Assembly: GCF_036226925.1 (NCBI RefSeq)
Contig: NZ_CP109031.1
Location: 8,494,001 to 8,558,000 of the forward strand
From: Streptomyces sp. NBC_00659
GTDB lineage: Bacteria > Actinomycetota > Actinomycetes > Streptomycetales > Streptomycetaceae
Length of the DNA: 64,000 nucleotides
Reading direction: 5' to 3'
Shown: piece by piece, positions 1,115-13,077 of the stretch
Layout of the letters: each line of letters begins with the position of its first letter
Numbering within the stretch: position 1 is the first letter of the stretch
Notes under the pieces: model-generated
Seen by the model: the letters and a program-made list of their open reading frames with translations, nothing else
What the model was told of the DNA's origin: nothing
Databases searched by the model: none
Program-made: the position numbers and the translations under genes

Positions 1115-1910
1115 CGTCGCCACTTTCCCTTGTGCGCACACTCACAGTGAACAAGCGCGTCGTCCGGGTTCCAGACTAGTGGCTGGGCCGACTCGAGCAC
1201 CCTCGAACGCGGAGGGTCCGGACAGCCATTCGTAGCGGACGGCCCGCGCGCCGCGCCTTCGCGGCCGATGCGGCTCGCGGGACGGAAGTGAGCGCCGGGC
1301 CGGCGTCAGCCGGATCCGTGGGCCCGAATTCCTCCGTCAGAATCCGCTTGTTCGTGGGTGTTTGCCGTAATGCGGCGCGAATGCAAGGCCCCCTGAAATG
1401 GCCCCGGGGCCGCCGACCGAGGACGGGAGGAGCGGGGTCGGCGGCCGGTTTCGCGTGGGAGCGCCCGCCGTCCCGCGCGGGGCCTTCGAGAAGGGCCGGT
1501 CCCAGTGGACCGCGGAGCCGGGTGAGCGGGGAGCGTGCGTGAGAAGCCGGTGTGTGCGCACGGTTCACACGGGGCGCATGAAATGCCGAAAGCCGGACGG
1601 TCCTCCGAGTCGTCGTTCGCTTTTGACATGTTTTCAATAAGGCTGATCTGGCTCGTGCGCCTTGTTGGTGACGAGTGTGTTGTGCGAGGGTGAGCCTCCC
1701 GCGCTTGGTCAAGGGCCGGGTCTGAATCGCTGTTCGCCATTCCCGGCTGTCGACGAGCTCAAGAAGCTCCCTGAGCGACGGTCGCCGCACGGCCTTCGTC
1801 CCCGGCCGTTCTCCCGGCGCTCCGTCAAAAGGTCCACACCAATCGGGACTCCTTTTCGACGGGCAAGCACGTCCTGTGTGCCCCATGCACCTCGGAAGGA
1901 ACCCGCTCCC
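1115..1910. other. Long intergenic region between divergent genes
   Basis: About 800 bases separate two divergent genes. Open frames on both strands here are arginine/proline-rich and lack ribosome sites or recognisable motifs, so I call no gene. It presumably carries both promoters. No RNA gene or clear terminator is visible. It is slightly less GC-rich around 1600-1660 than the flanking genes. Confidence 0.5.
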
Positions 1911-3734
1911 GTGCGCACCCCCCACCCGCCGCTGCCCGACCGTCCGCCCGGCGGATATTTCGGCGAGTCCGACGAGGACCTCGCCGCCGTGCTGAGAGAC
2001 GGGGAGGAGGCCGACAGCACTCGTCCCGTCGCCCTGCTGACAGCCCGGCACTGGCGGCCGGCCTACGACTACGCGGTGATCTGCCTCGCCACGTCCTCGC
2101 AGGTCGCCTCCATGGTCACCGAGGCCTCCTTCCGTCACGTCCTCGACGGCCTCGGAGAGGGTGGGCATGCTCTCGCGCTGCGGCCCCAACTCCTCGTCAC
2201 GGTGCGGGACACGGTCCGGACCTGGGCCGCGGACGACCGGATGTCGGAGGCCCTGCCGGCTTTGAGGAAACCCGCGGGCGGCCGCGGAATGCGCGCGGCG
2301 AAGTCCATGACGGCGGAGAACCGCAAGCTCGCCGAACACGCTTTCCTCGGTCTTCCGGGCGTCGCCCGATGCCTGTTGTGGCACACCGAGGTGGAGGACG
2401 AGTCGCTGTCCGTGCCGGCCGGACTTCTGGGCATGGAGGAGCCCATCGCGGTCGCCGCCTGGGAACAGGCCCGCGAGCAATTCCGCCAGGCCTGTCTGCG
2501 GGCGCATCTGGAATTCGCCCCGACCAGGGAATGCGGTTTCCACAACCGGCTCCTCGACGCGCCGATCCGGCGCGGCGGAGCCCTGCTGCCGGATGTCCAG
2601 GAGCACCTTTCGGAGTGCTCCTACTGCCGGTACGCGGCAGCACAACTCAGCCATTTCGAGGGTGGGTTGGGGCTTCTGATCGCCGAGTCCGTGCTCGGCT
2701 GGGGCGCCCGCCGCTACTACGACTCCCGCCGGGCACGCGGACGGCAGGGACTGCGCCCGCGCAGCGTCTCCCGGTTCCGGGGCAGGCGGCAGCGCGGCGG
2801 TGAGAGCTCCGGGAACGACGGACGTCTCCCGGACGACGGACGCCCGGCGGGCGGCGAGCGGACCGGGAAGGACGCGCGCTCCGGAGACGACGTGCTTCGC
2901 GCGGAGAGCGGCGAGATCCCCGCGGGCCGTGGTCGCGCGGAGAGCGGCGAGACCCCGGCGGGCCGTGGCCGAGCAGGCGCGGGCGGACGCCGTGGCAGGG
3001 AGGGGCGCGCCGAAGGCGGAGCGAGCCCGGCGGGCGGCGGACGCCCCGGCGCGGGCGGGCGCCGTCGTCCGCAGCCCTTGACCGCGTCGACGGGGCGACG
3101 GGCCGCCAGGCCGGCCGAGGTGTCCCAGCAGGCCCTGGTCACCGGGGCCGGTCTGTCGGCCGCGCTGCTGGCGACAGTCCTCGCGGTCAGTCTGTGGCCG
3201 AACGAGGAGGGCGGCACCGACTCCGCCGCCGCCATCGGAGCGAGCAGCAGCCGGACGCTGTCACCGGCCCAGGGTTCTCAGGTCCCGCCCGTGATGTCCA
3301 CGCCGTCCACCGCGGCCGAAGTGGCCTCCAAGGGCGAGCGGACCCGGCTGCGCAACGTGGACGCCGACCTGTGCCTCGACCTGCGGGACGCCAGGGCCGT
3401 GGAAGGCGCCGAGGCCACGCTGGACGTGTGCTCGTCCGCCTGGACCCAGCAATGGGTGTACGAGCGGGACGGACTGCTGCGCAGCGTCGCGAGCACCGGG
3501 CTCTGCCTCGACGCACGTGCCGACGACGGTGTCCTGCTCCTCGGCCGCTGTGCCGACGGGGACGAGGAGCGGCGCGAGGACATGCGCTACGACCTCACCG
3601 ACGAGGGCGAGTTGCTGTCCCGCGGGCGCGACGGACTGGCCGTCGCACCCGTGTCCACGGACCCCGGTGCCGACATCGTGGTCAAGGTCCGCGACTACTC
3701 CGACATCCAGCGCTGGCGGACCGAACGCCCCTGA
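1911..3734 (+). CDS. Sigma-factor-like protein fused to zinc-finger anti-sigma motif, membrane helix and ricin-type lectin
   Basis: A 607-residue protein. Residues 1-215 look like a diverged ECF sigma factor: a region-2-like helix set around RHWRPAYDYAVICLATSSQ and a region-4-like part with LPGVARCLLWHTEV. At residues 232-239 the sequence HLSECSYC is an exact H-x3-C-x2-C motif of zinc-binding anti-sigma domains. A charged Arg/Gly/Glu-rich linker full of repeats (about 280-400) leads to one hydrophobic helix at about 408-429. A ricin-type beta-trefoil follows (CLDLRDARAVEGAEATLDVC; QQWVYERDGLLRSVASTGLC). The topology places the lectin outside the cell. The GTG start is chosen because GGAAGGA lies 11 bases upstream and the open frame further upstream has no domain content. 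Streptomycete ECF groups with fused membrane carbohydrate-binding tails are known; assignment to one is inference. Confidence 0.8.
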   Translation: MRTPHPPLPDRPPGGYFGESDEDLAAVLRDGEEADSTRPVALLTARHWRPAYDYAVICLATSSQVASMVTEASFRHVLDGLGEGGHALALRPQLLVTVRDTVRTWAADDRMSEALPALRKPAGGRGMRAAKSMTAENRKLAEHAFLGLPGVARCLLWHTEVEDESLSVPAGLLGMEEPIAVAAWEQAREQFRQACLRAHLEFAPTRECGFHNRLLDAPIRRGGALLPDVQEHLSECSYCRYAAAQLSHFEGGLGLLIAESVLGWGARRYYDSRRARGRQGLRPRSVSRFRGRRQRGGESSGNDGRLPDDGRPAGGERTGKDARSGDDVLRAESGEIPAGRGRAESGETPAGRGRAGAGGRRGREGRAEGGASPAGGGRPGAGGRRRPQPLTASTGRRAARPAEVSQQALVTGAGLSAALLATVLAVSLWPNEEGGTDSAAAIGASSSRTLSPAQGSQVPPVMSTPSTAAEVASKGERTRLRNVDADLCLDLRDARAVEGAEATLDVCSSAWTQQWVYERDGLLRSVASTGLCLDARADDGVLLLGRCADGDEERREDMRYDLTDEGELLSRGRDGLAVAPVSTDPGADIVVKVRDYSDIQRWRTERP

Positions 3735-4500: not shown

Positions 4501-5949
4501 TCAGGTGGAGAGGACTTCGCGGAGTCTGGCCCGCGCTTCGCTGACCGTACTTGAGGTCGATCGACCCACTGTGTACGGGTAGAGCTGGCCGAGTTGCATG
4601 CGGACCCGGCCCGACCGGGTGTCTGCCGCCGCGTCGACGGCCCTGTGGGTCTGCTCGACTGCCCCGGTCACGTCGCCCACCAGGAAGTGGCATTCAGCCA
4701 GCCCGATGAGGTCCAGGGCGTGACTGCGGCCTGCTTCCGCGCCGCGGGTTGTGAGAGCGTTGCGGATGCTCGCGGCGGCAGCCTCAGCGTGCTTGTGGGG
4801 GTTGTGCCGGGCCATGTCGAGGAGCCTGCCGCCGGTGACTCCGGCGAACTCCGCCTCGTTGAAGTAGGCGATCCAGTACGGTTCTTCGGCGCCCGGAGAT
4901 TCAGCGAGGACTTCGGCTGCCTCCTGGGTCGCCCGTTCGAAGGCGGCGGTCCGGCCCATGGCTGCATAGGCCCACGCCTCGCGGGTGTGCAGCATGGCCC
5001 GGACGCGGGGACCGGCCGAGGCGCGTGCACCCTTCTGTGCCAGGCGGATGAGTTCGAGAGCGTCCTGTGGCCTGTCGGTGTACAGCATTTGCCGGGCCAT
5101 TCCGGCCAGCACGTTGGCGCCGAAGCATGCGTCACCGCCCGCGTGCGCGGCGCGGAGCGCGAGTAGATAGTAGTTCTGGGCCTGCTTGTGGAGTCCGGAA
5201 TCCCAGGCCATGGTGGCCGCGACGCCGCCGAGCTGCGCCATCACCCGGAACAGGGCCTGCTCGATAGGGGGCACCTGGTGCTCGTCGAGGTGGCCGGCCA
5301 CCTCGTTCAGCTGGCCGACGACGGCCTTTCGGCGCAGACCGCCACCGTACTTGTGGTCCCAGGCGCGGAACGCCCGTGCCGTGGCTTCGAGTTCCTGGAC
5401 CTCTCGGCGCCCGATCCTGCCGCGCCGGACGGCTGGGTCCGCGGCTGGAGGGTGTTGGAGCCAGGCTTCCAGGGAGTCGAGGAGGGTGGCGCCGAAGATG
5501 GCGGCGCCGGCGACTGTGCGCGCTGCCGTGCGGCGGTCCATCACGAGGTCACTCCTGGTCAGGTCAGCGGCCAGATGAACGGTCGCTGAGGGGCGCCAGG
5601 ATGCGCCGTCGGAAGACCGTGAGGCCGGTGGAGGTGGGTCTGGCGGGTCGGGTTGAGGACGGGTCTCCCAGGGGCGGTCGGCCAAGCCGACCATGCGCCC
5701 GGGGATGCGTAATCCGTCGGCGATGCGGCAGATGACGTCGAAGCTGGTGATGTGCTGCTGCCCGCTGATGATCGTGGAGACCTTGCCGGGGGTGAGCTGG
5801 CAGGCGACGGCGATCCGGTTCTGAGACAGTCCGCCCCACTTCTTGATCAGGGCGAAGGCTGCTGCGAAGTCGTGTTCTGCCAGAGCTCGCCTGACGTCAT
5901 CTCGATCGAGGAGGTCAGGGTCGAGTGGGCCGGGGGTGGTGGCATCCAT
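4501..5949 (-). CDS. XRE-family helix-turn-helix regulator with long TPR-like region
   Basis: A 482-residue protein. Residues about 20-90 form the helix-turn-helix (LSQNRIAVACQLTPGKVSTI and the following SGQQHITSFDVICRIADGLR). A Pro-rich linker follows, and residues about 190-480 are alpha-helical repeats with TPR-like spacing (ALFRVMAQLGGVAATMAWDS, ALELIRLAQKGARASAGPRV). Proteins of this shape in Streptomyces are transcriptional regulators whose TPR part binds a peptide or protein ligand. I chose ATG 5949 because GGAAG lies 8 bases upstream; a longer frame to 6156 crosses the divergent promoter region. It is divergent from the small ORF/DUF6415 pair, and two palindromes lie in the gap. It probably controls both directions. 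Confidence 0.85.
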   Translation of the reverse strand: MDATTPGPLDPDLLDRDDVRRALAEHDFAAAFALIKKWGGLSQNRIAVACQLTPGKVSTIISGQQHITSFDVICRIADGLRIPGRMVGLADRPWETRPQPDPPDPPPPASRSSDGASWRPSATVHLAADLTRSDLVMDRRTAARTVAGAAIFGATLLDSLEAWLQHPPAADPAVRRGRIGRREVQELEATARAFRAWDHKYGGGLRRKAVVGQLNEVAGHLDEHQVPPIEQALFRVMAQLGGVAATMAWDSGLHKQAQNYYLLALRAAHAGGDACFGANVLAGMARQMLYTDRPQDALELIRLAQKGARASAGPRVRAMLHTREAWAYAAMGRTAAFERATQEAAEVLAESPGAEEPYWIAYFNEAEFAGVTGGRLLDMARHNPHKHAEAAAASIRNALTTRGAEAGRSHALDLIGLAECHFLVGDVTGAVEQTHRAVDAAADTRSGRVRMQLGQLYPYTVGRSTSSTVSEARARLREVLST

Positions 5950-5990
5950 CGGGCCAACTTCCGGGGTGATCGTACGCGCTGCGGTGACCT

Positions 5991-6006
5991 GTTCCGAACC
6001 AGGAAC
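5991..6006. promoter_or_regulatory. Palindrome in XRE divergent promoter region
   Basis: GTTCCGAACCAGGAAC is a 5-6-5 inverted repeat 42 bases upstream of the XRE start. It is a candidate operator for that regulator. Confidence 0.4.
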
Positions 6007-6013
6007 GAGCGTA

Positions 6014-6028
6014 TTACCGCCTCGGTAA
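6014..6028. promoter_or_regulatory. Second palindrome in XRE divergent promoter region
   Basis: TTACCGCCTCGGTAA is a perfect 6-3-6 inverted repeat, 8 bases from the first palindrome and about 127 bases upstream of the divergent plus-strand gene. It is a candidate operator. Confidence 0.45.
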
Positions 6029-6154
6029 CCCCCGCCGGTCATCCCGGAGCTAACCGCGGAAGACGACTCTCGATGCATAGACATCGCACCCCGGCGACCG
6101 AGCGACCGGTCCCGGGGGCGTGGCCAACGCTCAAACCTGTGAGGGAGCGTCGAC

Positions 6155-6364
6155 ATGACAGAGAGTAGAGCTTCGGGAGACGGACGCGAAGCCTCCGCGA
6201 AGATGACGCTCAGCGTCTACACCGTCAGCCGTACAGGAGTTGTGACCCGGCCGCGCGCTACGGTCGTCGTGCCGTACGACTACCAGCCCGACCCGGTGGC
6301 CCTGGGGACGCTGTTCCCCGACTGCGTCTGCCCGCTCCACCGCCGGACGGGAGTCGGTCGGTGA
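6155..6364 (+). CDS. Small conserved-type protein of unknown function
   Basis: A 69-residue protein with ATG start and GGGAG 7 bases upstream. The C-terminal half contains VVVPYDYQPDPVALGTLFPD followed by CVCPLHRR, a Cys-x-Cys-x3-His cluster that could hold metal. It has no signal peptide or membrane segment. Its stop overlaps the start of the next gene by 4 bases (GTGA), so the two are translationally coupled. I do not recognise a family. Position upstream of the RiPP genes suggests a partner role in that cluster, which is inference. Confidence 0.65.
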   Translation: MTESRASGDGREASAKMTLSVYTVSRTGVVTRPRATVVVPYDYQPDPVALGTLFPDCVCPLHRRTGVGR

Positions 6365-6846
6365 ACACCGAGACCCGACGCGACAATGTGGACGTGGACG
6401 TGATGCGGCAGACGATCGCCGCACTGCTGCCGCCCTCGGAGGACCTGCCCACCGGACTCGAAGTGCCAGCGCTGACGGAGACCTTGCGCGGGCACATGAC
6501 CGCGCTGATTCCGGAGGTCGAGGAACTGGCCGGCCGACTGCACCGTGACGACATCCCCCGGTACTGCGCGCTCGCGTGTGTCGGGGAGGCCCGGGGCAAG
6601 CTCCGGGCCCGGCCCGCGATGGGCCTCGGCGGGGACGTGGCGTACGCGCGGAAGCTGGCGCGCTCCCTTATCGCGCTGTGCGACCACTTCGAGAGTCTGA
6701 CGGGCCAGGTCATGTGCGTCGCCTGCGACCGTGCGATCCGCCGTCCCGACGACGCCGTACCGCTGGACCAGGTCAGCAACTCGGCCGGGGCGATCACCGC
6801 CCGCGTGCACCCCGACTGCGTCGACGCGCCGCGCCCCCGCCGCTAG
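6361..6846 (+). CDS. DUF6415-like protein associated with natural product clusters
   Basis: A 161-residue, mostly helical protein (MRQTIAALLPPSEDLPTGLE, then LRGHMTALIPEVEELAGRLH). It has a conserved central part with GKLRARPAMGLGGDVAYARK and a Cys pair (VMCVACDRAI). This matches my memory of the DUF6415 family often found beside XRE/TPR regulators and RiPP genes in Streptomyces; the function is unknown. It is coupled to the preceding small ORF by a GTGA overlap. A 144-base gap containing a hairpin separates it from the precursor gene. Confidence 0.65.
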   Translation: MNTETRRDNVDVDVMRQTIAALLPPSEDLPTGLEVPALTETLRGHMTALIPEVEELAGRLHRDDIPRYCALACVGEARGKLRARPAMGLGGDVAYARKLARSLIALCDHFESLTGQVMCVACDRAIRRPDDAVPLDQVSNSAGAITARVHPDCVDAPRPRR

Positions 6847-6990: not shown

Positions 6991-7284
6991 GTGTTCGTCC
7001 ACTCCGACCGCCTCCCGGCCTCGTCGCCGGTTCCGTCCGGCAGCGTCACTCCGACACCGTGGGGCATTCAGCGCATGGCGCCGTACCCGACGATGGCGCC
7101 GGCCTACGCGCACGCCGACCTCGACCCTGCCACCCAGACCGCCCGATTCTTCGACGGCGGCGGGCGGGTCATGGAGATGCCCGGCCACGGCACCAGCACG
7201 GGGACCTCCCCGTCCACGGGGACCAGCCCCGACGGCAACGGTTCGACGCAGGACAGCGACAGCGGGAGCGACTCCGACCAGTGA
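6991..7284 (+). CDS. tgmA: ATP-grasp-modified RiPP (graspetide) precursor peptide
   Basis: A 97-residue precursor, GTG start with GAGGAG 5 bases upstream. The leader carries the family signature seen in actinobacterial ATP-grasp targets: PWGIQRMAPYP (residues 23-33), LDPATQTARFFD (44-55), then G-R-V-M-E-M and HGT (66-68). The core, from about residue 66 to the end, is Thr/Ser/Gly/Asp-rich, with Thr at 68, 70, 72, 76, 78 and 86 and Asp at 81, 88, 90, 94 and 96. These are the acceptor and donor side chains needed for Thr-Asp ester crosslinks. One Asp-Gly pair (81-82) is a natural aspartimide site. The gene overlaps the ligase by GTGA. Homologous systems give graspetides of the fuscimiditide/amycolimiditide type. 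Which residues are linked here is unknown. Confidence 0.88.
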   Translation: MFVHSDRLPASSPVPSGSVTPTPWGIQRMAPYPTMAPAYAHADLDPATQTARFFDGGGRVMEMPGHGTSTGTSPSTGTSPDGNGSTQDSDSGSDSDQ

Positions 7285-8231
7285 CCGATCCGCGTCCGGT
7301 GCTGGTCGTCACCGCCCTGTACGACCCCACCGCCGACGTGGTGATCACCGAGCTGCACGACCGGGGTGTCCCGGTCGTGCGGCTCGACTCCGGGGACTTC
7401 CCCGGGTCACTTTCGGTGGAGGCTGAGATCACCGCTCACGGCATCCAGGGGACCATCAGCACCCCGTCCCGGACCGCCGACCTCGCAAGCATCCGATCCC
7501 TGTACTACCGGCGCCCCTCCGGGTTCGCCTTCCCACATCTCGACGAGCAGGACGCCCGGTTCGCCGTCACCCAGGCGAGGTACGGAGTCGGGGGAGTGCT
7601 GGCCTCCCTGCCCGGCTGTCTGTACGTCAACCACCCGCACCGCATCGGCGACGCGGAGTTCAAGCCCGCCGGGCTGGCCGCCGCCGTCGCGGCCGGCTTC
7701 GACGTACCGCCCACGCTCATCACTTCGAGTCCCGATGCCACCCGGGCCTTCATCAAGCGGCACATGCCGGTCATCTACAAGCCGCTCCACAATCCGGTCT
7801 ACCTCGTCGACGGGGCGTCGTCCGTTGTGAAGGTCGCCGAAGTCTCGGCCGACGAGGTCGACGACGACGTGGCAGGGACGGCCCACCTGTTCCAACAGCG
7901 CGTGCCCAAGACCGGCGACATCCGGGTGACCGTCATCGGTGACCGCGTCTTCTGCGTGCGGATCGACTCCGACCTGCTCGACTGGCGCACCGACTACAGC
8001 CGCCTCACCTACACCGTCGTCCAGCCGCCACCGGGCATCGAACAGGCGCTGCGCAGCTATCTGCGCCACTTCGGGCTCGTCTTCGGCGCTTTCGACTTCG
8101 CCGTCGACCGTGAGCAGCAATGGTGGTTTCTGGAGTGCAACCCGTCCGGCCAGTGGTACTGGCTGGAGTCCGAGACGGGCCTGCCGATGCGTGCAGCCCT
8201 GGCAGACCTCCTTTTGGAGAGGACGACGTGA
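7281..8231 (+). CDS. tgmB: ATP-grasp peptide ligase (graspetide macrocyclase, SAV_5884-type)
   Basis: A 316-residue protein of the ATP-grasp RiPP maturase family. It has an N-terminal pre-ATP-grasp domain (VLVVTALYDPTADVVITELH; SLYYRRPSGFAFP) and an ATP-binding lysine segment (MPVIYKPLHNPVYLVDGASS). The C-terminal catalytic part has FGAFDFAVD and the metal-binding ECNPSGQW. The family uses ATP to activate Asp/Glu side chains of the precursor core and joins them to Thr/Ser hydroxyls (omega-esters) or Lys. Length is normal. The GTG start overlaps the precursor stop (GTGA), and its own stop overlaps the methyltransferase start in the same way. The three genes are thus one coupled transcription unit. 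Confidence 0.9.
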   Translation: MTDPRPVLVVTALYDPTADVVITELHDRGVPVVRLDSGDFPGSLSVEAEITAHGIQGTISTPSRTADLASIRSLYYRRPSGFAFPHLDEQDARFAVTQARYGVGGVLASLPGCLYVNHPHRIGDAEFKPAGLAAAVAAGFDVPPTLITSSPDATRAFIKRHMPVIYKPLHNPVYLVDGASSVVKVAEVSADEVDDDVAGTAHLFQQRVPKTGDIRVTVIGDRVFCVRIDSDLLDWRTDYSRLTYTVVQPPPGIEQALRSYLRHFGLVFGAFDFAVDREQQWWFLECNPSGQWYWLESETGLPMRAALADLLLERTT

Positions 8232-9340
8232 GCGATCAGGCACTGCTCCAGCAACTCGTCAGCACACTGACCGCGAACGGCAGTCTGCGCACCGCGCCGT
8301 GGAAGCAAGCCGCCGCGGCGGTCCCGCGGCACGAGTTCCTGCGGGGCGGATTCTTCCGCCGGGTCAGCGGCTCTCCCTCGGCCTGGGCGCCGATCCTGGA
8401 GGACGACCCCAGGTGGCTCGACGCCTGCTACGAAGACGAGTCGCTGGTCACCCAGATCGCCGGCACCATCGTTCCGGCCGACATCTGCGGCGAGATCATG
8501 CGCTCGCCCACCAGTTCCAGCACGCTGCCCTCCCTCGTGCTCCGCATGCTCGAAGAGCTCCAAGTCGAGGACGGGATGCGCGTGCTGGAGATCGGCACGG
8601 GGACCGGCTACTCCACCGGCGTGCTCTGCCGGCGCCTCGGCGAGGACTGCGTCACGTCGGTCGAGTACGACGAGGACGTGGCCGCCCGTGCGCAAACGGC
8701 CCTCGGTCGACTCGGCTTGTACCCCACACTCGTCACGGGAGACGGTCTGCTGGGCCACGTTGCGAAGTCCCCGTACGACCGGGTGATCGCGACGTGCGGG
8801 GTCCGCACCGTTCCTCAGTCATGGATCGAGCAGACGCGACCCGGCGGGCTGATCCTGGCCACTGTCGGCGGATGGCTGGCGTCCTCCAGCCTGGCCCGGC
8901 TGACGGTGCACGACGACGGGACGGCGAGCGGGCCGCTGCTCAGCGGTCAGGTCAGCTTCATGCTCGCCCGGCCGCACCTGGCACCGCCGCTCGGGCTACT
9001 GCCTGATCTCGGCGCGGGCAAAGAGCGGGAGGCCGTCCTTGGCGTCGACGTCCTGAACGACTGGACGGCCCGGTTCGTCGTCCAGGACGCCGTTCCGTGC
9101 GCGCAGCGCCTGACGTCGGAGCAGAACGGGCGCCACGAGCACGTCCTGGTCGACGTCGACACCGGTTCGTGGGCTGCTGTCTACGAAGAGGGCAGCCGGT
9201 GGACCGTGCGGCAGGACGGCCCGGTTGCCCTGTGGGATGCCGCGGAGGAGGCCCTTGGGCGCTGGCTCTCCGCCGGCCGCCCTCCGCTGGAGGAGTTCAC
9301 CCTCAGGGTCACCCCGGACGGCCACTCCTACACCTGGTAG
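8228..9340 (+). CDS. PCMT-like methyltransferase of the ATP-grasp RiPP system
   Basis: A 370-residue protein with a class I SAM-binding motif VLEIGTGTGYSTGVL and flanking VTSVEYDEDVAARA and VTGDGLLGHVAKSPYDRVI. This is the protein-L-isoaspartate O-methyltransferase fold. An extended N-terminus (VPRHEFLRGGFFRRVSGSPS) and a C-terminal domain of about 130 residues distinguish it from the repair enzyme. It fits the methyltransferase of ATP-grasp maturase systems. In characterised relatives it methylates an Asp carboxylate of the ester-crosslinked peptide, which collapses to a stable aspartimide. Asp81-Gly82 of the precursor is the obvious candidate target here. The start overlaps the ligase stop (GTGA). 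Confidence 0.88.
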   Translation: MSDQALLQQLVSTLTANGSLRTAPWKQAAAAVPRHEFLRGGFFRRVSGSPSAWAPILEDDPRWLDACYEDESLVTQIAGTIVPADICGEIMRSPTSSSTLPSLVLRMLEELQVEDGMRVLEIGTGTGYSTGVLCRRLGEDCVTSVEYDEDVAARAQTALGRLGLYPTLVTGDGLLGHVAKSPYDRVIATCGVRTVPQSWIEQTRPGGLILATVGGWLASSSLARLTVHDDGTASGPLLSGQVSFMLARPHLAPPLGLLPDLGAGKEREAVLGVDVLNDWTARFVVQDAVPCAQRLTSEQNGRHEHVLVDVDTGSWAAVYEEGSRWTVRQDGPVALWDAAEEALGRWLSAGRPPLEEFTLRVTPDGHSYTW

Positions 9341-9644: not shown

Positions 9645-10619
9645 CTACGAGACCACGTCCTGGGGCGGCTTGCCCGCCACGAAGTCCGCGGCGTTCTGGA
9701 CCGCGGCCAGCGCGATCCGTACGAGGGTCTCGCGGGTGACACCGGCGACGTGCGGGGAGAGCACGACGTTCGGCGCCTTGAGCAACCGCAGGGCCGGGGT
9801 GGGTGGTTCGGGGTCGAAGACGTCGAGGCCCGCTCCGGCGAGGGCGCCCGCGTGCAGCGAGTCCGCGAGGGCGTCCTGGTCGATCAGGGCGCCACGCGAG
9901 GTGTTGACGACGAACGCGGTCGGCTTGAGCAGCGCGAGCCGTTCGGCGTTCAGGAGATGACGGGTCGCGTCGGTGAGCGGCGCGTGCAGGCTGACGTAGT
10001 CCGATACGCGCAGCAGTTCGTCGAGTTCGACGTGGCGGGCGCCGAGCCGGGTCTCCGTCTCGGCGGACGCGCGTGTGGGCCCGGCGTAGACGACGCTCAT
10101 GTCGAACGCGACCGCACGCCGCGCGACCTCCTCGCCGATGTGGCCGAGTCCCACGACCCCGAGCGTCTTGCCGGACAGCTCCGTGATCGACTGCTGGAGC
10201 CGGGGCAGCGCCCAGTCCGCCTCGGTCAACGCGGTGTGGGCGGGCACCAGTTGCTTGGCCAGGGCGAGCATGAGGGCGAAGGTCTGCTCGGCCACGTTCT
10301 GCTTCTCGGCGCCGCTGGAACCGATGTTGCACACGGGTATGCCCCGCTCGCGCGCCGCGTCCAGATCGACGTAGTCGAAGCCGTGGCTCGCGCACTGGAT
10401 CAGCTCCAGGTCCGGTGCGGCGGCGATGTGTCCGGCGGTCACGGGGCCGAGGCCGGTGACGACGACGTGCGCCTCGCGCAGCGCGGCGGGGTCCTCGTCC
10501 GTGGTCTCCACGACGGTGACACGGGCCTGCCCCGGGAAGAGGGTGGCGAGCGCCGCTCCCGCCGTACGGCCGCCCACATGCGCGGAGACGACGGCGAGCA
10601 CGTTCTTGGTGACGGTCAT
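9645..10619 (-). CDS. D-isomer-specific 2-hydroxyacid dehydrogenase
   Basis: A 324-residue NAD(P)-dependent dehydrogenase. The Rossmann motif is LGVVGLGHIGEEVA, the family signature is LLKPTAFVVNTSRGALIDQD, and the catalytic His region is VVLSPHVAGVTRETLVRIA. Length matches the family. The likely reaction is reversible oxidation of a 2-hydroxyacid (lactate- or glycerate-like) to the 2-oxoacid; the substrate is not readable. Its ATG overlaps the stop of the upstream FMN oxidase by 4 bases (ATGA), so both are co-translated and probably act on the same hydroxyacid pool. The stop is about 60 bases from the XRE remnant and repeat. Confidence 0.9.
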   Translation of the reverse strand: MTVTKNVLAVVSAHVGGRTAGAALATLFPGQARVTVVETTDEDPAALREAHVVVTGLGPVTAGHIAAAPDLELIQCASHGFDYVDLDAARERGIPVCNIGSSGAEKQNVAEQTFALMLALAKQLVPAHTALTEADWALPRLQQSITELSGKTLGVVGLGHIGEEVARRAVAFDMSVVYAGPTRASAETETRLGARHVELDELLRVSDYVSLHAPLTDATRHLLNAERLALLKPTAFVVNTSRGALIDQDALADSLHAGALAGAGLDVFDPEPPTPALRLLKAPNVVLSPHVAGVTRETLVRIALAAVQNAADFVAGKPPQDVVS

Positions 10620-11785
10620 GCGGTCTCCTCGATGAGGTCCTCGGGGCCGAGGGAGGCGGGACGGGCGTGTCCGGACAGGGCGAGGGTGAGATCGAACTCG
10701 GCGAGCAGACAGCGGACGACGTGTTCGACACCCGGCTGCCCGTCGAGGCCGAGACCGTAGGCGTAGGGACGTCCGACGAGCACCGCCCGCGCCCCGAGGG
10801 CGAGCGCCTTGAAGATGTCGTCGCCGGTGCGGATGCCGCTGTCGAAGAGCACGGTGAGCCTCTCGCCCACCGCCGCCGCCACGCGGGGCAGCGCGTCGGC
10901 GGCGGCGACGGACCCCGCCACCTGCCGGCCCCCGTGGTTGGAGACCACCACGCCGTCCATCCCGGCCTCGGCGGCCTGCCGGGCGTCGTCCGGGTGCAGG
11001 ATGCCCTTGAGGACGATCGGCCCGTCCCAGTTCTCCCTCAGGAAGGCCAGGTCCGGCCAGGTCTTGCCGGGGTCCGCGAACATGCTCACGAAGTGCATCA
11101 CGGCCGCGTTCGGGTCCTCGTGCACCGGCTTGGCCAGACCCGCCCGGAACGCCGGGTCGGAGAAGTAGTTGGCGGTGCCCACGCCGTGCAGGAACGGCAG
11201 GTACGCCTGGTCGAGGTCGCGCGGGCGCCACGCCAGCAGCGGGGTGTCGAGCGTGACGAACAGCGCGGTGAACCCGGCCGCCTTCGCCCGGTCCAGGAAG
11301 CTGCGGGTGACCTCGCGGTCCTTCGCCCAGTAGAGCTGGAACCAGCGCTCGCCGTCCCCCATGGCCTCGGCGACCTGCTCCATCGGGGTGCTGGAGGCGG
11401 AGGACAGGATGTACGGGACGCCCTGCGCGGCGGCGGCCCGTGCGGCGGCGCACTCGGCGTCCGGATGCATGATCGACAGCACGCCGATCGGCGCGAGCGC
11501 CAGCGGCGCGGGCAACGGGCGCCCCAGCACCTCGACGGACAGGTCGCGTTCGTGGACGTCACGCAGCATGCGCGGCACGATCCGGCGCCGGCCGAGGGCC
11601 TCCCGGTTGGCGCGCGCCGTGCTGCCGTCGCCCGCGCTTCCCGCCACATAGCCGACCGGACCGGGGCCGAGCCGCTGCTCGGTGAGCTCCTCCAGCCGCG
11701 TCAGATCGGTGGGCAGCCGCGGCACGGCGCCCGTCATTCCGTTCAGATAGATCTCGTACTGGAAGTCGGCCCAGTGCTTCGCCAT
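10616..11785 (-). CDS. FMN-dependent alpha-hydroxyacid oxidase / lactate 2-monooxygenase family
   Basis: A 389-residue TIM-barrel flavoprotein. The catalytic His signature is VVVSNHGGRQVAGSVAAADA and the FMN phosphate loop is VLFDSGIRTGDDIFKALALG, ending ARAVLVGRPYAYGL. The N-terminus (WADFQYEIYLNGMTGAVPRL) is closer to lactate 2-monooxygenase-type proteins than to glycolate oxidase. It oxidises an L-2-hydroxyacid to the oxoacid or its decarboxylated product. ATG 11785 is chosen, with GAGGCGGGA upstream; the frame further upstream runs into the divergent PucR gene. It is first gene of a two-gene operon, probably regulated by that divergent regulator. Confidence 0.9.
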   Translation of the reverse strand: MAKHWADFQYEIYLNGMTGAVPRLPTDLTRLEELTEQRLGPGPVGYVAGSAGDGSTARANREALGRRRIVPRMLRDVHERDLSVEVLGRPLPAPLALAPIGVLSIMHPDAECAAARAAAAQGVPYILSSASSTPMEQVAEAMGDGERWFQLYWAKDREVTRSFLDRAKAAGFTALFVTLDTPLLAWRPRDLDQAYLPFLHGVGTANYFSDPAFRAGLAKPVHEDPNAAVMHFVSMFADPGKTWPDLAFLRENWDGPIVLKGILHPDDARQAAEAGMDGVVVSNHGGRQVAGSVAAADALPRVAAAVGERLTVLFDSGIRTGDDIFKALALGARAVLVGRPYAYGLGLDGQPGVEHVVRCLLAEFDLTLALSGHARPASLGPEDLIEETA

Positions 11786-11868
11786 CCGTACGTCCCGCCT
11801 CTCGTCCCTGAGACCGCGCTGTACGACGACGATCCTGGCGACTGTGACAAGTCCCGTCCACCGTGGTG

Positions 11869-11881
11869 CGCACAACGTGCG
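11869..11881. promoter_or_regulatory. Palindrome in the PucR divergent promoter
   Basis: CGCACAACGTGCG is a perfect 5-3-5 inverted repeat 18 bases before the PucR start and 84 bases from the oxidase start. It is a candidate operator. Confidence 0.35.
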
Positions 11882-11898
11882 GCTGGGATCATCACCCT

Positions 11899-13077
11899 GT
11901 GACAAACAAGCCGTCCGAGGACCGGGAACGCGTCCGGCAGGAAATGGTCGCCGACCCGCGTGTCGTGGAGGCGATCGTCGCGGCGGTCCACGAACAGGTC
12001 CCGGTGTACGCGGCGCTCGACGACAGCCGGCTGCCCGAGGTACGGGCGATCGCGGCCTGGGGCCTGGAGCGGCTGCTCCACCTGTGGGCCACCGACGGCA
12101 CACTGGGACCGGCCGATCTCCGGCGTTTCCGGGGCATCGCCTCGGCCCGCGCGGCGGACGGGCGCCCGGTGCAGGCGGTGCTGCGCGCCTACCGGGTCGC
12201 GGGCACCGTCCTCACGGACGAGGTCGCCGCCCGCGCGCCCCGGCTCGCCGCCGCCGACGCCTTCGCGCTCGCCCGCATGCTGCTCGCCACCCTGGACACG
12301 CTCTCCGAGGAGATGGCCACCGCCTACGCCGCCACCAGCGAGGACCTGGCCGGCGACCGGAGCCGGGCGCTGCGGCTGCTGTTCGACGACCTCATCGCCG
12401 GACGGCACGCCTCGGTGGGCGCGCTCTCCGACCGTTCCGTCAGACTGGGCATCCAGCTCCCGGATCCGTACTGCCTGCTGGCGGCGGAGCCGGTCGCCGC
12501 GGACCGGCCGGATCTCGCCCACGAGACGGCGACGGCCCTGCTGGACGCACTGGCCCCTCCCGGGGGCGAGGTGACGTCCCTGGCGACGGTACGGGGCTCA
12601 CGTGCCGTCCTGCTGCTGCCGCTCGCGGCGTCCGAGCGGGCCGGGGAGGTGATGGGCGCACGGTCCTGGCGCGGGTGCGTCATCACCGGCGAGAGCCTGG
12701 ACCGGATCGCCCTGGCGCACCGGCTCGCCGCCGACGCGCTCGACACCGCCCCGGCCCACGCCCATCGGTCCGGGCAGGTGCTCACCGACGCCGACGCGCA
12801 GGTGCTCGCCCTGCTCGCCGGGCGCCCGGCCGCCGCGCCCGGCCACATCGCGCGCCTGGTGCTCGGGCCGCTCGCCGAGGCCGCCCGGCGGCATCTGCTG
12901 GACGCCCTCACGGCGTACATCGACGCGGGCTCGGCGAACGCCGCCGCGCGGACCCTGCACCTTCATCCGCAGTCCCTGCGCTACCGCCTGCGCCGGGTGC
13001 ACGAGCTGACCGGCCGCGATCCCCGCGACCCCTGGCACCGGCTCACCCTGGACATCGCCCGGACGATCCGCGACTGA
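11899..13077 (+). CDS. PucR-family transcriptional regulator
   Basis: A 392-residue protein. The C-terminal 60 residues form the PucR-type helix-turn-helix (LHLHPQSLRYRLRRVHELTG, then RDPRDPWHRLTLDIA). The middle is a GGDEF-like sensor domain (DALDTAPAHAHRSGQVLTDA), and the N-terminus is a helical RsbR-like region. Such regulators respond to the substrate of a neighbouring catabolic operon, so it probably controls the hydroxyacid oxidase-dehydrogenase pair. The start is uncertain: GTG 11899 fits the family N-terminus but has no strong ribosome site; GTG 11863 adds 12 residues and would place the palindrome inside the gene. Confidence 0.85.
   Translation: MTNKPSEDRERVRQEMVADPRVVEAIVAAVHEQVPVYAALDDSRLPEVRAIAAWGLERLLHLWATDGTLGPADLRRFRGIASARAADGRPVQAVLRAYRVAGTVLTDEVAARAPRLAAADAFALARMLLATLDTLSEEMATAYAATSEDLAGDRSRALRLLFDDLIAGRHASVGALSDRSVRLGIQLPDPYCLLAAEPVAADRPDLAHETATALLDALAPPGGEVTSLATVRGSRAVLLLPLAASERAGEVMGARSWRGCVITGESLDRIALAHRLAADALDTAPAHAHRSGQVLTDADAQVLALLAGRPAAAPGHIARLVLGPLAEAARRHLLDALTAYIDAGSANAAARTLHLHPQSLRYRLRRVHELTGRDPRDPWHRLTLDIARTIRD

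Follow-up and report, generated by a model that had tools for sequence, protein, structure and literature searches.

We report a gene trio in Streptomyces sp. NBC_00659 that is very probably a group 13 graspetide (graspimiditide) cluster of the SsfA type, an assignment that extends to the activities of both of its enzymes. The trio lies in the window, by which we mean the whole stretch of DNA analysed, 64,000 nucleotides corresponding to positions 8494001-8558000 of a single 9.66-Mb contig. Three frames on the plus strand (6991-7284, 7281-8231 and 8228-9340) all begin with a GTG start, and a GTGA stop/start overlap joins precursor to ligase and ligase to methyltransferase. A GAGGAG stretch is located directly 5' of the precursor start at 6991. 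The features of the locus are as follows, in window coordinates:

4501..6156, minus strand: divergent NsdA-family regulator with a helix-turn-helix (NF053720 282.6, cut-off 75; HTH_31)
6155-6364, plus strand: small upstream frame
6361..6846, plus strand: DUF6415 protein, upstream (PF19979 106.1, cut-off 27.5)
6991..7284, plus strand: precursor peptide, 97 aa (TIGR04186, PF14408), with the leader at about residues 1-65 and the core at about 66-97
7186..7281, plus strand: core coding region, residues 66-97 (conservation among 55 sequences of 97 aa)
7281..8231, plus strand: predicted ATP-grasp ligase (graspetide synthetase), 316 aa (TIGR04187; solved relatives)
8228..9340, plus strand: predicted PIMT-like Asp O-methyltransferase, 370 aa (TIGR04188, PF01135; closest structure 1dl5)

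The initial annotation had described a precursor, an ATP-grasp ligase and a PCMT-like methyltransferase joined by GTGA overlaps and had proposed comparing them with TIGR04186, TIGR04187 and TIGR04188; the frames agree with this description, and all three genes score above the curated cut-offs. The precursor reaches 84 bits against TIGR04186 (cut-off 25), which upholds its placement in the graspetide leader family, and 61.5 against PF14408 (cut-off 25). The ligase reaches 435.9 bits against TIGR04187 (cut-off 350), and the methyltransferase reaches 444.2 bits against TIGR04188 (cut-off 380) with 362 of 363 positions covered, in line with a PIMT homologue that bears an extra C-terminal part, while also matching PF01135. 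None of the three families exceeded its cut-off in any of 14 well-known control genomes, where sub-cut-off matches were found in 0/14 genomes for TIGR04186, 7/14 for TIGR04187 and 14/14 for TIGR04188. Elsewhere in the same genome (contig 1, 3636559-3637242, minus strand; L132) a further TIGR04188-like methyltransferase scores 246 bits, below cut-off, and possibly belongs to another RiPP type.

The arrangement is more than a chance one: of 52 named loci from relatives, 45 contain the trio with ligase and methyltransferase each aligned over at least 250 residues, a count that leaves out this genome's own second locus, L087 (45 of 53 with it). Ligase or methyltransferase alignments are short or missing in the other seven (L037, L040, L058, L065, L068, L077 and L081). 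At L037, L068 and L077 the precursor is present and the methyltransferase frame was not found by alignment, which may reflect frameshift, assembly error or loss. The ligase carries FLECNP near its C-terminus, aligned with the same stretch of its solved relatives (best 9bou, then 5ig9, AMdnB (7m4s) and CdnC (7mgv)), and FLExN is present in 43 of the 45 ligases of complete relatives' loci. Near the C-terminus of the translated methyltransferase is WLSAGRP, an instance of the WxxxGxP motif of lasso, graspetide and imiditide methyltransferases (PMC13001092); 39 of the 45 methyltransferases of complete loci contain this motif. Its best solved relative is the Thermotoga maritima PIMT 1dl5, a solved enzyme placed in the clade of RiPP-associated methyltransferases (PMC10787088). 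Homology thus favors both an ester-forming ligase (TIGR04187) and an aspartimide site at Asp-Gly served by a PIMT-like methyltransferase, as had been proposed.

The translated core (residues 66-97) contains the six Thr (68, 70, 72, 76, 78 and 86), five Asp (81, 88, 90, 94 and 96) and single Asp81-Gly82 pair initially reported, with the pair inside the loop and followed by Asn83. The precursor tail reads TQDSDSGSDSDQ and ends in Gln97; further landmarks are Glu62, Gly77-Thr78 and Ser89. In the leader, PWG occupies residues 23-25 (TPWG in the window, with RPFG absent), and Pro23 and Trp24 are invariant among 14 diverse precursors. Across a set of 55 sequences of 97 aa that includes the window, five Thr (68, 70, 72, 76 and 78), four Asp (88, 90, 94 and 96), Asp81, Gly82 and Gln97 are 98-100% kept, Asp81-Gly82 and the pair of Thr68 and Gln97 being present in 55/55, and Thr86 is 80% kept. 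Within this set, mean identity to the window precursor is 0.87 for the core and 0.69 for residues 1-65. At DNA level, in 66 pairs drawn from 12 sequences, pN/pS (uncorrected for multiple hits) is 0.27 for the core versus 0.42 for the leader, so that among relatives constraint is stronger on the core. At E up to 1 the precursor matched no solved structure, and the 13 weak matches of a 14-precursor profile at E up to 10, mostly to fatty-acid-binding proteins, were taken as chance.

The closest described counterpart is SsfA from Streptomyces sp. F-3, encoded with an ATP-grasp and a PIMT homologue gene (PMC10787088) in a cluster whose structure is, per a review, the same as that of amycolimiditide (PMC13001092). 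As described in its paper, SsfA has 97 aa and yields a GluC fragment 63-97 by cleavage after residue 62; it has Gly77-Thr78, a methylated Asp81 ahead of Gly82-Asn83, Ser89, and four Asp with no Glu among its last 12 residues (PMC10787088). The window core agrees with SsfA wherever the text names a core residue, a comparison made by published description and not by sequence. One difference is likely beside the core at residue 65, Gly in the window, where a 66-97 fragment and the named trypsin sites suggest Lys or Arg in SsfA (PMC10787088). The full pattern taken from the SsfA text (97 aa, E62, G77-T78, D81-G82-N83, S89, and four D but no E among the final 12 residues) fits 35 of the 55 sequences, window included, and P0037 is the only database relative that fits this list with Lys65; we saw no tie between it and strain F-3.

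Judged from these described features, the window core appears to fall in the already characterised SsfA group. The initial annotation had suggested a ring pattern not seen in known products and had itself named membership of a characterised graspetide group as evidence against that suggestion; such membership appears to hold through the description of SsfA, by text and not by sequence, and the suggestion of a new ring pattern was not sustained, as the core fits the text of a peptide already expressed and analysed. Since its core fits the published description of a peptide made in the laboratory, the locus looks like an unremarkable addition to a family already known. A ring topology peculiar to this core was likewise rejected, because same-length relatives retain its Thr and Asp positions at 98-100% and these positions fit the SsfA text. 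The SsfA authors tried to determine ring connectivity and could not (PMC10787088), so the question of topology belongs to the whole SsfA type and is not special to this locus; a 2026 review still calls the fifth SsfA link "postulated" (PMC13001092), and no later solution is evident from titles and abstract openings in literature from 2023.

The chemistry reported for SsfA suggests a pathway for the window peptide. The ligase would recognise the leader through the PWG region, phosphorylate carboxylates and link these with Thr hydroxyls, so that about five esters would form if SsfA is a guide: with its own ligase, SsfA lost 90 Da and underwent up to fivefold methanolysis, equivalent to five esters (PMC10787088). 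By analogy with SsfM, the methyltransferase would then methylate Asp81 of the cyclised core, and the methyl ester would collapse with the Gly82 amide into an aspartimide that may hydrolyse to isoAsp, the course described for Asp81 of SsfA (PMC10787088). SsfA peptides with zero to four esters were not efficiently modified by SsfM (PMC10787088).

The name "imiditide-type" given in the initial annotation is not supported, as an aspartimide-bearing graspetide is termed a graspimiditide (PMC13001092). In imiditides, or type I pamtides, a PIMT homologue with WxxxGxP makes the aspartimide, as expected here, but the aspartimide is the sole modification of a linear substrate and there is no ATP-grasp ligase (PMC13001092), whereas the window has one. 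Membership of that class was rejected on account of the open ATP-grasp ligase frame overlapping the precursor gene. A peptide bearing an aspartimide alone could account for the PIMT-like enzyme with its WxxxGxP and for the Asp-Gly site, but is extremely improbable given a ligase frame that is open, above its family cut-off and retains FLECNP, five Thr that are 98-100% kept, and the inefficiency of SsfM on linear or partly cyclised SsfA (PMC10787088). Characterised graspimiditides offer further comparisons. Amycolimiditide has a stem-loop form built by Thr-Asp esters, with its aspartimide lying in a loop of 10 residues (PMC12291112, PMC13003496, PMC13001092), and albusimiditide is a Streptomyces graspimiditide with stem-loop esters, as expected of the window type (PMC13001092). 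Fuscimiditide resembles the ladder predicted below in its nested Thr-Asp esters in constant-sum register and its aspartimide in the loop, but has two esters and, in its precursor ThfA, a leader with RPFG where the window has PWG (PMC12291112, PMC13003496).

For the ring order, we put forward a five-rung antiparallel ester ladder for the SsfA type, in which the C-terminal carboxylate of the peptide itself would close the outermost ring; we give this proposal an even chance. The exact ladder predicted from the window sequence, held with about the same balance of belief and doubt, is Thr78-Asp88, Thr76-Asp90, Thr72-Asp94, Thr70-Asp96 and Thr68 to the Gln97 C-terminal carboxylate, and would be nested from Thr78-Asp88 outwards. 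The register rule is that antiparallel rungs give a constant sum of Thr and Asp positions, a rule followed by the fuscimiditide links Thr3-Asp22 and Thr7-Asp18 (PMC12291112). In the window, 78+88, 76+90, 72+94 and 70+96 all equal 166, and a constant sum of 166 places Thr68 opposite position 98, immediately beyond Gln97 and at the site of the C-terminal carboxylate. The SsfA authors also infer that the C-terminal carboxylate participates in the esters (PMC10787088).

The same four in-register pairs of Asp and Thr would serve equally for a product of this cluster with only four side chain-to-side chain esters and a free C-terminus, as in amycolimiditide, for which four ester links are reported (PMC12291112, PMC13003496) against the approximately five expected for the window core. 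We regard this as unlikely: SsfA, whose last 12 residues likewise hold four Asp, showed the -90 Da shift and up to fivefold methanolysis (PMC10787088), and both Thr68 and Gln97, the proposed partners of the fifth ester, are kept in 55/55 sequences of 97 aa.

Returning to the five-rung ladder, we compared registers across 331 cores (227 from database proteins and 104 from loci; 241 unique), some loci representing the same genome twice. Sequences that were frameshifted, extended or mis-extracted had been removed (L015, L048, L062, L098, L100, L119 and L124), six loci are absent as their core was not extracted (L022, L040, L044, L078, L085 and L114), and 13 of the 344 sequences left were dropped for lacking a usable H[GNS]T core, including the genome's second precursor and HFDD-type relatives. 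When the register is computed without the first Thr, 133 of 135 unique DQ-ending cores align that Thr with the C-terminus, one aligns it with an Asp and one is ambiguous, all register counts being drawn from related and not independent cores. Other natural architectures form four-rung registers with gap patterns 4-2-4, 2-4-4 and 2-6-2, and 13 cluster representatives comprise eight with four rungs, three with three and two with one.

The evidence from mirror spacing is tempered by several controls. Support from shuffling is modest for the window core, with P about 0.02-0.03: shuffled C-terminal arms reached its observed score with P 0.023, and for seven other representative cores the values were 0.028, 0.086, 0.196, 0.024, 0.038, 0.121 and 0.279. 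Arms swapped between core types often score four, as good as native, since in some arms Thr occupies almost all even positions. All four register rungs are present in 64 of the 66 D-ending cores of 30 residues, in which Thr10 is invariant (66/66) and has Asp at its register partner in only one. Among 99 D-ending cores the leave-one-out register was ambiguous in 96 and fell outside the peptide in three; of five G-ending cores, two gave Asp and three were ambiguous, as were two more cores. We downgraded mirror spacing as strong proof of a ladder in view of the shuffles, the arm-swap matrix and the unpartnered Thr10. We therefore treat the ladder as the simplest reading that joins the SsfA mass data with the sequences, and not as a demonstrated structure.

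The surroundings of the trio are only patchily shared. NsdA-like regulator frames occur in 10 relatives' loci and DUF6415-like frames in two, which leaves the NsdA-family regulator and the DUF6415 protein as mere candidates for a link to the cluster. Of 83 upstream frames taken from 51 loci (82 of 130 called frames and one added by hand, at L060), 18 carry HTH_31, a plain count for which no enrichment is claimed; a conserved regulator was not accepted as part of the system. Transporters occur singly, with an amino acid permease in three of the 83 upstream frames. Eight groups of frames of at least 80 aa beside the trio recur in at least five loci, the commonest in 12, and one frame each of six groups was scanned, giving GNAT-type, TPR, HATPase, two helix-turn-helix and one without a match; the other two are overlapping frames. 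No dedicated transporter or protease family was common to at least five loci among these six of eight recurring groups, in agreement, as regards the protease, with the statement that no native graspimiditide protease is known (PMC12291112). This lack of a shared transporter or protease family would suit a cluster that is silent or decaying and persists in the strain by chance, a very unlikely account in view of three genes that are all open and overlapping and a core more constrained than the leader among relatives. Farther out in the window lie a plus-strand frame (1662-3734) that carries a ricin-type beta-trefoil lectin domain at its C-terminus and, at 9645-13077, a 2-hydroxyacid dehydrogenase and an FMN-dependent dehydrogenase on the minus strand with a PucR-type helix-turn-helix regulator on the plus strand, the latter three genes apparently unrelated to the cluster.

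A second GRASP locus lies approximately 99 kb away in the same genome, on contig 1 at about 8600331-8601490 (L002:1292-2451, L034:1429-1689). Its precursor matches TIGR04186, with an RPFT leader, an HFDD ending and a core ending in TTTSTAGSQTHFDD, its ligase is just above the TIGR04187 cut-off, and no TIGR04188 methyltransferase match was found beside it. Very similar core endings occur in loci of other genomes, e.g. L092-L096 and L098-L101.

Precursors of this kind are widespread in the genus. A protein search returned 113 relatives of the window precursor at E up to 0.001, and a profile of 14 diverse precursors returned 854 matches. The window precursor was matched in 153 of 392 sampled genomes of the same genus (E up to 0.001), and TIGR04186 in 172 of 297 genomes of the family and in 11 of 396 genomes sampled from the phylum, every one of these from the same genus. 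The locus thus adds a copy to a RiPP type already common in Streptomyces, and its value lies in comparison. A core kept more strictly than its leader among Streptomyces would fit a fixed role and not a varying weapon. SsfA-type core variants, wherein loop length varies and the arms are unchanged, give a rung-by-rung prediction for the connectivity that the papers on SsfA leave unsolved; the ladder, if true, would give this type a side-chain-to-end link.
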